A stretch of DNA of 64,000 nucleotides from the NCBI GenBank assembly GCA_009786535.1, contig WQRX01000010.1, forward strand, positions 1 through 64,000, in the 5' to 3' direction. Positions 15,062-34,554 of this stretch are shown piece by piece (within the stretch, counting starts at the first letter, position 1; every line of letters starts with the position of its first letter). Source of the DNA: Defluviitaleaceae bacterium. Its GTDB lineage: Bacteria > Bacillota > Clostridia > Lachnospirales > WQUN01. The notes under the pieces were generated by a model. The model was not told the origin of the DNA, searched no databases, and saw only the letters and a program-made list of their open reading frames with translations. The translations under genes were made by a program, and so were the position numbers.

Positions 15062-16285
15062 ATGAACATTCCAAAAGAAGTACAAAAAATCCTACACACC
15101 CTCGAGGCAGCCGGCTTTGAGGGTTTTGTCGTGGGCGGGTGTGTGCGTGATATGCTGCGCGGCGTTGCGCCTAAGGATTGGGACATAACCACTTCCGCAA
15201 CACCCACACAGGTGAAGGCACTCTTCCCCCGCACCTTTGATACGGGCATACAGCACGGCACAATCACCGTATTACAGGGCGGCAAACCCTTTGAAGTAAC
15301 CACCTACCGCATAGACGGCACTTACACCGACGCGCGCCGCCCCGATAGCGTCACCTTTACCGCACAAATTGAGGAAGACCTTTCCCGCCGCGACTTTACC
15401 ATAAACGCCATCGCCTACAACCCCACCCACGGCTTTGCCGACCCATTTAACGGGCGGGCAGACATTACGCGCCAAACCATTCGCTGTGTGGGCAACCCCA
15501 CGCACCGCTTTACAGAAGACGCACTGCGAATGCTGCGCGCCGTGCGCTTTGCGGGGACGCTGGGCTTCGTCATTGACCCTGCCGCCATTAACGCCATTAC
15601 AGCGCTGCGCGAAAACCTAACCCGTATTAGCGCCGAGCGCATTCGCGAGGAATTAACGCGCCTGCTGTGCGGTACACTCCCCGGCGCATTGTCGTTATTG
15701 GAAAGCACAGGCTTACTGCCCTATGTTTTACGCGGTACACCCTACCCCGCCCCATTGGCGCAAACCGTCCAATACTTAGAAAGCGCCCCCACCGATGAAA
15801 CGCTCCGCTTATCCCTATTCTTTACCCCCTTCCAACAAAACGGGAGCGCTCCCACCGTAGAAAAAATTATGCGCGATTTGCGCTACGATAATAAAACAAT
15901 CCACGCCGCAGCCTTATTTGCGCGTCTGCTTCCCCACCCCATTCCCGCCGAACGGTATGCAATAAAAAAAATCCTGCAGCAACTACCGCAGGATTTGGTG
16001 AAGGATTCGTTTGAAAAATTGCTTGCGTTGCAACAAATCACAGGCGTTTCCGATACCGCGCACAACGAATTATTGCGTCAACTCGCCGATGATGTTTTAT
16101 CCAAAAACGAGCCGTATCTGCTCAAGCACCTGGCCATAAACGGCGATGATTTACACGCGACGGGCTTCCCGCGGGGTAAGGAAATGGGTGCGGCGCTTGC
16201 GGGTTTGCTGGATGCCATACTGCGCGAGCCTGCGGCAAATGAAAAACAAATCCTGTTAAACAGGCTTCATGGTGGGGAAAAATAG
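15062..16285 (+). CDS. cca: CCA-adding tRNA nucleotidyltransferase
   Basis: Adds or repairs the 3' CCA of tRNAs. Class II polymerase-beta fold: FVVGGCVRDMLRG, then the catalytic DxD in KDWDITTSATP, RDFTINAIAYN, and the RNA-binding segment RFTEDALRMLRAVRFAGTLGF. From ATG 15062 the product is 407 residues. An in-frame ATG at 15056 is equally possible. No Shine-Dalgarno precedes either, consistent with a leaderless message. The 3' end overlaps the convergent lysS by 30 bp. One GGGAGCGCTCCC palindrome lies at 15842-15853. Confidence 0.94.
   Translation: MNIPKEVQKILHTLEAAGFEGFVVGGCVRDMLRGVAPKDWDITTSATPTQVKALFPRTFDTGIQHGTITVLQGGKPFEVTTYRIDGTYTDARRPDSVTFTAQIEEDLSRRDFTINAIAYNPTHGFADPFNGRADITRQTIRCVGNPTHRFTEDALRMLRAVRFAGTLGFVIDPAAINAITALRENLTRISAERIREELTRLLCGTLPGALSLLESTGLLPYVLRGTPYPAPLAQTVQYLESAPTDETLRLSLFFTPFQQNGSAPTVEKIMRDLRYDNKTIHAAALFARLLPHPIPAERYAIKKILQQLPQDLVKDSFEKLLALQQITGVSDTAHNELLRQLADDVLSKNEPYLLKHLAINGDDLHATGFPRGKEMGAALAGLLDAILREPAANEKQILLNRLHGGEK
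15842..15853. repeat. Palindrome GGGAGCGCTCCC (copy 3, in cca)
   Basis: A perfect 12-bp palindrome read as G-S-A-P in cca, a third codon phase. Confidence 0.7.
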
Positions 16286-17707
16286 CACGTCCCGAATGGA
16301 GGCGGAATCCGTAAGCAGCATAACAAAACGGTCAATGCCCATGCCGTAGCCACCTGTGGGCGGCATTCCGTATTCGATGGCGGTTAGGAAGTCCTCGTCT
16401 ATCATGTTTGCTTCATCGTCACCCGCGGCGCGTTGCGATTCTTGATACTCAAAGCGGGCGCGCTGGTCAACGGGGTCGTTAAGCTCGGAATAGGCGTTGC
16501 CAAATTCCTTGCCTACGATGAAAAGCTCAAACCGCTCGGTGTATTCCGGCTTGTCGGGCTTTTTCTTTGTAAGGGGCGAAATTTCTATAGGGTGGTCCAG
16601 GATAAAGGTGGGCTGTATAAGATGATGCTCCACAAATTTATCAAAAAACGCCTCCAGCACATGCCCCTTGCCGAAATGCGGCTCTACATGTACGCCATGC
16701 TCCTTTGCGGCGGCGCAGGCGTCATCCGGCGTAGAAATGGCGTAAAAATCCACACCCGTATGCTGTTTTACCGCCTCCGCCATGGAAATACGCGCAAAGG
16801 GCTTTGACAGGTCAATCTCATGCCCTTCATACGAAATGGTGGTCTTGCCCAGCACCGTTTGCGCCACATGACGGAACATTTCCTCTACCAGCGCCATAAT
16901 GCCGTGGTAGTCGGTATAGGCTTCGTATAATTCCAGCATAGTAAATTCGGGGTTATGCTTCAGCGAAATACCCTCGTTACGGAAGTTACGCCCCATTTCA
17001 TACACGCGCTCAAAGCCGCCGACAATAAGGCGCTTTAGCGGAAGCTCCAGCGCAATGCGCATATACATTTGCATATCCATCGTATTGTGGTGCGTGATAA
17101 ACGGGCGTGCGGAAGCCCCGCCGGCTATCGTCTGCAGGATAGGCGTGTCCACCTCCAAATACCCGCGTGCATCCAAAAACGCGCGTATCGCCTTCACAAT
17201 CGCGGTGCGTTTTACAAATACGTCGCGCACATCGGGGTTTACGATTAGGTCAAGATAACGCTGGCGGTAGCGGGTTTCCTTGTCGGTTAAGCCGTGGAAT
17301 TTTTCGGGCAATACGTGCAGACTCTTTGCCAGCAAATCAATGCCCGTGGCTTTTACAGACTTTTCGCCCTTCTGCGTAAGGAAAACCGTACCCTGTACGC
17401 CGATAATGTCGCCAATGTCGAAATTTTTAAAGTCTTCATAGGCGTCCTCGCCTGTATTTTCGCCCTTCACGTATACTTGAATGCGCCCGTGTTCGTCTTG
17501 CACATCAATAAAGGACGCTTTGCCCATCATGCGCTTGGTCATTAACCGCCCTGCAACGCTTACGTTTTTGCCTTCAAAGCTTTCAAAATTATTATGAATA
17601 TCCTTGCTGTGCGTATCCACCGTGTAGATGGTACGCAAAAAGGGGTCGCGCCCTTGGGCTTGCAGGGCTTGCAGTTTTTCTAAACGAACTTGTACCTGCT
17701 CGCTCAT
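16256..17707 (-). CDS. lysS: Lysyl-tRNA synthetase, class II
   Basis: Charges tRNA-Lys. The 483-residue product has an N-terminal OB-fold anticodon-binding domain (about 40-145) and the class II catalytic core: motif 2 MGRNFRNEGISLKHNPEFT and motif 3 GGYGMGIDRFVMLLT, ending in DVLFFPTMKPV. It lies 10 bp downstream of greA in the same orientation, a common arrangement in Bacillota, so it is probably co-transcribed from the greA promoter. No T-box is visible. Its 3' end overlaps cca. Confidence 0.97.
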   Translation of the reverse strand: MSEQVQVRLEKLQALQAQGRDPFLRTIYTVDTHSKDIHNNFESFEGKNVSVAGRLMTKRMMGKASFIDVQDEHGRIQVYVKGENTGEDAYEDFKNFDIGDIIGVQGTVFLTQKGEKSVKATGIDLLAKSLHVLPEKFHGLTDKETRYRQRYLDLIVNPDVRDVFVKRTAIVKAIRAFLDARGYLEVDTPILQTIAGGASARPFITHHNTMDMQMYMRIALELPLKRLIVGGFERVYEMGRNFRNEGISLKHNPEFTMLELYEAYTDYHGIMALVEEMFRHVAQTVLGKTTISYEGHEIDLSKPFARISMAEAVKQHTGVDFYAISTPDDACAAAKEHGVHVEPHFGKGHVLEAFFDKFVEHHLIQPTFILDHPIEISPLTKKKPDKPEYTERFELFIVGKEFGNAYSELNDPVDQRARFEYQESQRAAGDDEANMIDEDFLTAIEYGMPPTGGYGMGIDRFVMLLTDSASIRDVLFFPTMKPV

Positions 17708-20106: not shown

Positions 20107-20136
20107 TTGACACCCCCTTATATTTTTGAATATAAT
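20107..20136 (+). promoter_or_regulatory. Promoter of the CTP synthase gene
   Basis: TTGACA (20107-20112), 18 bp and TATAAT (20131-20136), about 62 nt before the start codon. There is no run of Gs at the expected start site of the kind that mediates CTP-sensitive reiterative attenuation in Bacillus pyrG. Confidence 0.7.
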
Positions 20137-20198: not shown

Positions 20199-21818
20199 AT
20201 GCAGCCAGGTATGCAAACAAAGTACATTTTTATGACAGGCGGCGTGTGCTCGGGTTTGGGAAAGGGCATTACTGCAGCATCTTTGGGGCGGCTTTTGAAG
20301 GCACGCGGCTTCCGCGTAACCATTCAAAAGTTTGACCCCTATTTAAATACCGACCCGGGTCTGCTCAGCCCCTACGAACACGGCGAAGTTTATGTAACCG
20401 AGGACGGCGCAGAGGTTGACCTGGACCTAGGTCATTACGAGCGTTATATAGATGAAAACCTAAGCGTAAACAACAGCATAACCGCAGGGCAGATTTTTTG
20501 GGAAGTGCTGAGCCGCGAACGCAACGGCAATTACAGAGGCAAAACCATTCAAATTATCCCCCATATTACCGATGCGGTAAAATCGCACATTGTGTGCAAC
20601 CAAGACACGCAAATTGTTATATCTGAAATTGGCGGCACGGTAGGCGACTTTGAGAGCCTGCCCTTCATAGAAGCGATACGCCAATTTGGCGACGATATCG
20701 GCGCGGAACACATTATGTTTGTTCACGTCACCCTTGTACCGTATTTAGACTTTGCGGGCGAGGCGAAAACCAAGCCTTCCCAGCACTCGGTAAAAGAATT
20801 ATTGTCACTGGGCATTAAACCCGATGTGCTTGTTTGCCGTACACAACACCCGCTGGAAGAAGAAATGCGCGACAAACTTGCGCGGTTTTGCCACGTAAAA
20901 CACGACTGTATTATAGAAAATTTGGACGCAAAATCCCTCTACGACGTACCGCTAATGCTGGAGAAGGAACATTTTGCCGACATTGTGTGCAAGCGCCTTG
21001 GTTTAACGCCCAACATGCCGGACCTTTCGGAATGGACTGCATTAACACAAAAATCCCTTACCAAAACCATAAACGTTGCCTTAGTCGGCAAATATGCGGA
21101 ATTTAAGGACGCCTATATCTCCTCTGCCGAGGCGTTAAAGCACGCAAGTATTTTCCACGGTGTAAAAATTAACATCGACTGGATACATGCCGAGGAGATT
21201 AACGACGAAAACGCGCATATATTCTTGGCAGACAAACACGCAGTCATTATGCCGGGCGGTTACGGCGAAAGGGGTATAGGCGGGCTTATCAGCGCGGCGA
21301 AATACGCCCGCGTAAATAAAAAGCCCTTTCTCGCCATAGGGCAAGCCATGCATTGCGCCCTTATTGAATACGCACGCAATGTAGCAGGCTGCACCGATTC
21401 CGACAGTGTGGAATTTAATGCGGAAACCGTTTCGCCCATCATTATTCCTGTACACCCCCCGCAAGAAGGCAAAGGCAATAATAAAATCGTACCCATGCGC
21501 AAGGGTGCAATTCCCGTAAAGCTTACGCCCGACACATTGCTTGCTAAAGCCTATGGAGAAAACTTAATTTACGAACGCTTCCGCCATAATTATAAAATTA
21601 ACATCCAATGCCGCATACCCCTTGCTGAAAGCGGGCTTATCCTGTCCGCAAGCTCCCCCGATGATGCGTTTTGCGAAGCTATAGAATTACCGAACAAGAT
21701 GCATCCGTGGTTTGTGGGGGTACAGTTCCGCCCCGAATTTAAGTCGCGCATAACACGCCCAAGCCCCATTTTTAAGGCGTTTATTAAGGCGGCGCTGGGG
21801 GAAAATTTAAAAGATTAA
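20199..21818 (+). CDS. pyrG: CTP synthase with degenerate glutaminase domain
   Basis: Converts UTP to CTP with ATP and ammonia. I start at ATG 20199 after GGAGGG, giving 539 residues. The synthase half is intact: TGGVCSGLGKGITAASLGR, QKFDPYLNTDPG, the Mg-ligand segment TEDGAEVDLDLGHYERY, and EIGGTVGDFESLPFIEA. The GATase half is recognisable (MPGGYGERGIGG) but its catalytic triad is broken. Where the family has the nucleophile in GICLGMQ this protein has AIGQAMH (Cys to Gly), and where it has QFHPEF it has QFRPEF (His to Arg). The Glu remains. The GGTMRLG lid also appears replaced by PMRKGAI. It probably relies on free ammonia or an external glutaminase. Confidence 0.9.
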   Translation: MQPGMQTKYIFMTGGVCSGLGKGITAASLGRLLKARGFRVTIQKFDPYLNTDPGLLSPYEHGEVYVTEDGAEVDLDLGHYERYIDENLSVNNSITAGQIFWEVLSRERNGNYRGKTIQIIPHITDAVKSHIVCNQDTQIVISEIGGTVGDFESLPFIEAIRQFGDDIGAEHIMFVHVTLVPYLDFAGEAKTKPSQHSVKELLSLGIKPDVLVCRTQHPLEEEMRDKLARFCHVKHDCIIENLDAKSLYDVPLMLEKEHFADIVCKRLGLTPNMPDLSEWTALTQKSLTKTINVALVGKYAEFKDAYISSAEALKHASIFHGVKINIDWIHAEEINDENAHIFLADKHAVIMPGGYGERGIGGLISAAKYARVNKKPFLAIGQAMHCALIEYARNVAGCTDSDSVEFNAETVSPIIIPVHPPQEGKGNNKIVPMRKGAIPVKLTPDTLLAKAYGENLIYERFRHNYKINIQCRIPLAESGLILSASSPDDAFCEAIELPNKMHPWFVGVQFRPEFKSRITRPSPIFKAFIKAALGENLKD

Positions 21819-33762: not shown

Positions 33763-34554
33763 ATGGTTAATTTTAGATTGGACGGTAAAATTGCGCTGGT
33801 CACGGGCGCGTCGTATGGAATTGGCATGGGTATGGCGTTGGCGCTGGCGGACGCGGGTGCTAAGATTGTTTTTAACGATATTAATGCGGAGCTGGTAGAG
33901 AAAGGACTTGCAGAGTATAAGGCGCAGGGCGTTGACGCCCACGGCTATGTGTGCGACGTAACGGACGAAGCGGGCGTAAATGCCATGTTTAAGCAAATCC
34001 GCACCGATGTGGGTATTGTGGATATTTTGATTAATAACGCGGGCATTATTAAGCGCATTCCCATGCTGGAAATGACGGCGGACGACTTCCGCAAAGTGGT
34101 GGACATTCACCTGAGCGGGTCGTTTTTAATGGCGAAGGCGGCACTGCCGGGCATGTTGGAAAAAGGTCACGGTAAGATTATCAATATCTGCTCTATGATG
34201 AGCGAGCTGGGGCGCGAAACCGTTTCGGGTTACGCGGCTGCCAAGGGCGGGCTTAAGATGCTTACGAAGAATATCTGCTCGGAATTTGGACACGCCAACA
34301 TCCAATGTAACGGCATTGGACCGGGCTACATCGCCACGCCGCAAACTGCGCCCCTTCGTGAGAAGGACGCAGACGGCAACCCCCACCCCTTCGACAAGTT
34401 TATTCTTTCCAAAACACCCGCAGGGCGCTGGGGCGTACCCGAAGACCTGGCAGGACCTGCGGTTTTCCTCGCCGGCGATGCGTCTAACTTTGTAAATGGG
34501 CATATTTTATATGTGGACGGCGGCATTTTGGCGTATATTGGGAAGCAACCGTAA
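33763..34554 (+). CDS. Short-chain dehydrogenase, gluconate 5-dehydrogenase/KduD type
   Basis: A 263-residue SDR from ATG 33763, which follows TTGGAGG. The cofactor loop is LVTGASYGIGMGMALALA, the structural NNAG is in ILINNAGIIKRIPM, and the catalytic Ser and Tyr-x3-Lys are in NICSMMSELGRE and SGYAAAKGG. The segment NGIGPGYIATPQTAPLR is typical of gluconate 5-dehydrogenases and the related 2-dehydro-3-deoxygluconate dehydrogenases. In this locus it probably interconverts a keto-deoxy-uronate intermediate (inference). Ends 2 bp from a convergent gene. Confidence 0.88.
   Translation: MVNFRLDGKIALVTGASYGIGMGMALALADAGAKIVFNDINAELVEKGLAEYKAQGVDAHGYVCDVTDEAGVNAMFKQIRTDVGIVDILINNAGIIKRIPMLEMTADDFRKVVDIHLSGSFLMAKAALPGMLEKGHGKIINICSMMSELGRETVSGYAAAKGGLKMLTKNICSEFGHANIQCNGIGPGYIATPQTAPLREKDADGNPHPFDKFILSKTPAGRWGVPEDLAGPAVFLAGDASNFVNGHILYVDGGILAYIGKQP

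Follow-up and report, generated by a model that had tools for sequence, protein, structure and literature searches.

The Cys-less CTP synthase gene

CTP synthase is regarded as a universally glutamine-dependent, GTP-activated enzyme, its use of exogenous NH3 being known mainly from the test tube. The stretch of DNA analysed here (the window: 64,000 nucleotides of contig WQRX01000010.1 from a Defluviitaleaceae bacterium) encodes a CTP synthase whose glutaminase half lacks the catalytic cysteine and histidine. A first-pass annotation had described a full-length intact frame at this locus, and profile searches bear this out: the 539-aa protein starts at an ATG with a GGAGG close upstream and matches the PyrG profile TIGR00337 with 682 bits (cut-off 462.75) over residues 6-531, which places it in the PyrG family. 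PF06418 matched over the full length of the domain with 397 bits, and PF00117 scored 78 bits, against 139 bits in the canonical paralogue described below. The promoter that had also been annotated agrees with TTGACA-18-TATAAT at all 12 positions, a match to the consensus only, and several weaker matches to this pattern are expected by chance in the scan. An AlphaFold model of the protein (pLDDT 83) folds like an ordinary CTP synthase, with TM scores of 0.80-0.86 against solved bacterial CTP synthases; its pLDDT falls below 50 at residues 421-435, in the L13 segment, and residues 50-75 are also poorly defined. Coordinates are collected in Table 1.

Table 1. Features of the Cys-less pyrG locus in the window, and AsnB-like loci of related genomes
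Feature	Position	Strand	Basis
Predicted sigma-70-type promoter, TTGACA-18-TATAAT	20107..20136	+	12/12 match, consensus only
pyrG, Cys-less CTP synthase, 539 aa	20199..21818	+	ORF and profile matches
Synthase (amidoligase) domain	20220..21005	+	PF06418 full length and residue audit against E. coli
L4 loop (E. coli R105/D107/L109), unconserved: N109/N111/R113	20520..20540	+	Alignment
Class-I GATase domain, nucleophile lost, scaffold kept	21036..21815	+	PF00117
Codon GGG, Gly381, in place of catalytic Cys379 of E. coli	21339..21341	+	Alignment
L13 wing/beta18, GGTMRLG replaced by VPMRKGA	21459..21512	+	Alignment and model pLDDT
His463-Asn464, Asn464 corresponding to E. coli Arg470	21585..21590	+	Alignment
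Codon CGC, Arg511, in place of catalytic His515 of E. coli	21729..21731	+	Alignment
AsnB-like Cys1-less locus L254	G000:C12:84529-84813		
AsnB-like Cys1-less loci L256, L257, L258, L259, L261, L263, L265, L267, L269, L271			

Residues of the glutaminase and synthase halves

We collected homologues from the whole genomes of one GTDB family, all clade genomes being draft assemblies, and numbered residues by alignment to E. coli PyrG from MG1655. Position 379 is Gly in 20/20 full-length close homologues and in G014, a deeper and more degraded member of the clade (motif GIGSGIH), and Cys in 53/53 tree references. The alignment thus upholds both substitutions annotated in the window protein, which has Gly, Arg and Glu (Glu513, E. 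coli Glu517) in place of the Cys-His-Glu triad. It was further suggested that homologues might share the Gly/Arg pair as a clade; the Gly is indeed clade-wide, but position 515 in the 20 members is His in 13, Arg in six and Cys in one, so the two residues form no joint signature. As read from the alignment, loss of His515 is secondary, later and repeated. Two further candidates were rejected: a nucleophile moved to the Cys of the neighbouring MQC, since this Cys occurs widely in canonical PyrG and G032 has Tyr there, and selenocysteine or another recoding at position 381, where the codons are GGN.

Beyond the triad, Arg470 is absent from 20/20 clade members and G014, Gly357 is lost in half of the members, and Leu109 of the L4 loop is kept in 1/20 versus 47/53 references. 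The claim that the "GGTMRLG lid" had been replaced holds for GGT, which is lost; MR.G is retained, and the motif belongs to the L13 wing/beta18, the true lid L11 being E. coli residues 354-362 (PMC9138612), with its Arg356 still in place. Glu149, Arg356, Glu403 and Glu517 are kept in the 20 clade members, as is the pinch of the ammonia tunnel, Pro54/His57/Val60 (Val or Ile), which in the window protein is P58/H61/V64. The synthase half, annotated as intact, proved so in the residue audit against E. coli: its ATP, UTP and Mg sites are whole, and K18, K40, D72, E140, K187, K189, K223 and other active-site residues are invariant in 20/20 members and G014.

Published variants at sites of this set spare NH3-dependent CTP formation. 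Those at R105, L109, G352 and R429 of the E. coli enzyme lose glutamine-dependent activity and keep the NH3-dependent reaction, and those at R359 and T431 of the L. lactis enzyme harm glutamine-dependent CTP formation while affecting the NH3-dependent one little or not at all (PMC9138612). The erosion therefore tracks glutamine use and leaves the ammonia route intact. On the aligned sequences, the loss is selective, falling on glutamine-specific residues (Cys379, Arg470, Leu109, GGT) and sparing the synthase site and the tunnel pinch.

Sequencing error or a decaying pseudogene has nothing in its favor except the draft status of the assembly. The same Gly recurs in 21 genomes in all four codon spellings (GGG, GGC, GGA and GGT), which excludes a read error. 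The frame is open, and dN/dS of the GATase half in clade pairs is 0.07-0.13 (0.07-0.09 in canonical relatives), which indicates purifying selection and supports the first-pass annotation in holding that the window gene is not decaying. We give this explanation a negligible chance.

Phylogeny and distribution of the two PyrG types

In a tree of the synthase domain alone, whose grouping GATase decay cannot shape, all 21 Gly sequences form one clade (support 95/94) nested among the ordinary PyrG sequences of their order. The simplest account of these sequences is a single loss of the Cys nucleophile in the clade's ancestor, from the vertically inherited PyrG of the family. Among 80 canonical loci of named relatives, none from the clade, the Cys is present wherever the gene is readable. 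A search of 398 genomes of the phylum with the pattern GIGLGM[QH], which misses other motif variants, returned four matches, three of them unrelated and one an isolated PyrG (G756) from another family. The latter (L276, G756:C34, ~34442-34461) is otherwise fully canonical and has GIGLGMH for GICLGMH, which would represent either an assembly error or a separate loss of recent date.

A search for a second pyrG, as the first-pass annotation had proposed, found a canonical copy in the genome of the window (G000:C2:101546-103123), with PFLGICMGMQ and QYHPEF at the catalytic positions. In the tree, 15/16 canonical copies of the GTDB family make up a clade of their own, close to a Ruminococcus MAG, and are thus most simply read as xenologues; by the same reading, the canonical copy in the window's genome would most simply be a distant, horizontally acquired one. 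Both types were found together in six clade genomes, and the Cys-less type alone in 15 genomes and G014 (in G036 from a fragment only). When restricted to high-quality clade genomes, the Cys-less enzyme is the only PF06418 protein found in 9/15. Across the order, 22/299 high-quality genomes (7%) have no PyrG match at all, and the binomial chance that incompleteness would cause at least nine misses is about 1e-7 (computed with n = 14).

Nitrogen metabolism and AsnB-like paralogues of the clade genomes

Glutamine synthetase (PF00120) was found in 4/16 genomes with the Cys-less type only versus 16/16 genomes with a canonical copy, the latter comprising 6/6 two-copy and 10/10 canonical-only genomes (Fisher p 1.6e-5, counted over genomes that are not independent because of kinship). 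Among high-quality genomes the counts are 2/9 versus 11/11 (p 4.6e-4), and a tree-paired test of the second copy against glutamine synthetase gave 3.6 pairs in the same direction and 0 in the opposite one (p = 0.125). The four glutamine synthetases of Cys-less-only genomes are GlnN-like type III by frame length and score, the frame in G031 being partial. Glutamine synthetase competes with NadE for ammonia, a competition relieved by glnA mutation (PMC3376133), and its loss accordingly fits ammonia use. Amt was found mainly in canonical-only genomes and, among Cys-less genomes, only in G005, so that ammonia uptake in the others would need diffusion or another route. Enzymes that use glutamine (PurF, HisH and AsnB with Cys1) persist in some clade genomes, which shows that it is still present; judged from gene content, glutamine use in the clade is reduced rather than abolished.

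In 11 clade genomes we found AsnB-like paralogues in which the Cys1 position, or one close to it, holds S, N, G, E or R (Table 1). Their N-termini read MSGIGG, MNGIGG, MEGIGG, MGGIGG, MSAIGG or MSGFCG, and D replaces the Asn of the NGE motif (FNGE to FDGE or CDGE). The copy in the window's genome is shortened to 467 aa, and where the G002 copy starts is uncertain. Cys is retained in the normal AsnB, PurF and GlmS copies examined in clade genomes. From these residues, the Cys1-less proteins are probably either ammonia-dependent asparagine synthetases or dead paralogues.

Predicted activity and alternative explanations

Of the three roles that the first-pass annotation had left open (ammonia-dependent enzyme, synthase served by an external glutaminase, and regulatory or filament-forming paralogue), the comparisons favor the first, as the glutamine-specific residues are gone, the synthase half is intact, the Cys-less enzyme is the only CTP synthase found in many good genomes, and glutamine synthetase tends to be missing where the canonical copy is. 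We consider it likely, judging from sequence comparison, that the window protein is a CTP synthase dedicated to ammonia. Exogenous NH3 is a substrate that ordinary CTP synthases accept as well. In the proposed mechanism, UTP would be phosphorylated by ATP as in the usual enzyme, and free NH3 would enter through the catalytically dead GATase/vestibule region, the GATase domain remaining as scaffold and NH3 conduit. The setting would be ammonia-rich surroundings, in a lineage that appears to have mostly dispensed with glutamine synthetase, Amt and many of its glutamine amidotransferases, and in the window's genome the acquired canonical PyrG would probably supply the glutamine route. That coexisting copy argues against a dedicated ammonia role in this particular genome, and the persistence in the clade of Glu403, R356 and, in 13/20 members, His515 also weighs against it, as not every residue of the glutamine site has been lost. 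With confidence only a little above even, we propose more broadly that this bacterial family is converting amidotransferases to ammonia, its sole CTP synthase and, separately, AsnB having lost their nucleophiles while the lineage dropped glutamine synthetase, Amt and most class-I GATases.

The synthase could instead receive its ammonia in trans, either from a stand-alone glutaminase or from the GATase of some other enzyme, an arrangement common in other amidotransferases and for which small class-I GATases of some clade genomes might be candidates. Yet of five additional small class-I GATases inspected in genomes with only the Cys-less type, four are HisH, the fifth (G004) resembles a gamma-glutamyl-CDP-amidate hydrolase, and G001, G019, G030 and G034 have no PF00117 protein besides the Cys-less PyrG. 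A search of 38 genomes for glutaminases of the GlsA family found none, no free PyrG-type GATase was found in the genomes searched, and the neighborhood of Cys-less pyrG holds no obvious glutaminase or transporter gene. Moreover, the docking position of the Cys-less enzyme is still occupied by its own GATase domain. We therefore regard feeding in trans as unlikely.

A non-catalytic paralogue that regulates canonical PyrG or caps its filaments would accord with the canonical copy in the window's genome and with the known filament formation of CTP synthases. This role, which fits poorly with the sole-copy genomes and with the invariance across the clade of all catalytic synthase residues checked, seems to us very unlikely. 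Residual or altered hydrolysis of glutamine or another amide, by a different nucleophile or by water, would make use of Glu403, Glu517 and the often present His515; no new conserved Cys, Ser or Thr stands in for the nucleophile, however, Arg470 is gone in 20/20 members, and the window protein lacks His515 as well, which leaves this explanation highly improbable.

Relation to known enzymes

The dedicated ammonia-dependent enzyme proposed here shares with bacterial PyrG (TIGR00337, EC 6.3.4.2) its two-domain architecture, length, synthase site, tunnel pinch and predicted fold, and differs in that the clade lacks Cys379, Arg470 and the L4 and L13 GTP-coupling elements, with a variable His515. By family the window protein is thus a CTP synthase, but given the lost triad it should not be filed as glutamine-hydrolysing. 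Human carbamoyl-phosphate synthetase I (CPS1), with Ser294 for Cys, likewise keeps a dead class-I GATase as scaffold and uses free ammonia (PMC4655335), and the window protein resembles it in that its GATase domain is still present with the nucleophile replaced. CPS1 is a different enzyme in a different pathway, disposing of ammonia into urea, and its ammonia use is biochemically shown, whereas that of Cys-less PyrG is inferred. The single-domain NAD synthetase NadE is also an ATP-dependent amidoligase that acts on free ammonia in vivo and competes for it with glutamine synthetase (PMC3376133), but it has no GATase domain, whereas Cys-less PyrG keeps one without the nucleophile. The CTP synthase C-terminal region-related (seleno)protein PRK06186 (NF004836) has a PyrG-type GATase-like domain; it is a stand-alone domain, and the window protein, which has a synthase half, scores 110 bits, far under the 260-bit cut-off.

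To our knowledge, no natural ammonia-only CTP synthase was known before, and none was found in a literature search conducted mostly outside subscription journals. If the prediction is true, the window protein would be the first, and a natural case of largely glutamine-independent nucleotide amination. Cys-less PyrG would join a small group of ATP-dependent amidoligases believed to draw on free ammonia in the living cell, among them glutamine synthetase and NadE (PMC3376133) and CPS1 (PMC4655335), and the clade would offer naturally evolved GTP-uncoupled enzymes for work on the tunnel and on how NH3 gets in. With the nucleophile of AsnB and glutamine synthetase lost in parallel, it also becomes testable whether glutamine is dispensable as nitrogen donor where ammonia abounds.

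Genomic neighborhoods of the pyrG copies

The neighborhood of Cys-less pyrG is conserved within subclades and comprises secA, prfB, a rluD-like gene and a nucleotidyltransferase gene, named by reading the sequences. In nine clade genomes (L129-L140), Cys-less pyrG has a gene for a LicC-like nucleotidyltransferase immediately or a short way upstream, usually preceded by secA, prfB and the rluD-like gene. Where readable, the neighbors of the canonical copies are glutamine synthetase, GuaA/CarA-sized GATases, purA, purB or dapF. Contigs with canonical pyrG often carry glutamine synthetase, GuaA and CarA-sized GATases, possibly as a transferable glutamine-use cluster. In the window's genome, a 250-aa truncated glutamine synthetase lies between purA and dapF, not far from canonical pyrG (L003:10465-11217, on G000:C2), and its counterpart on G003:C15 appears to be in two pieces, at 15615-16178 and 16188-16433.
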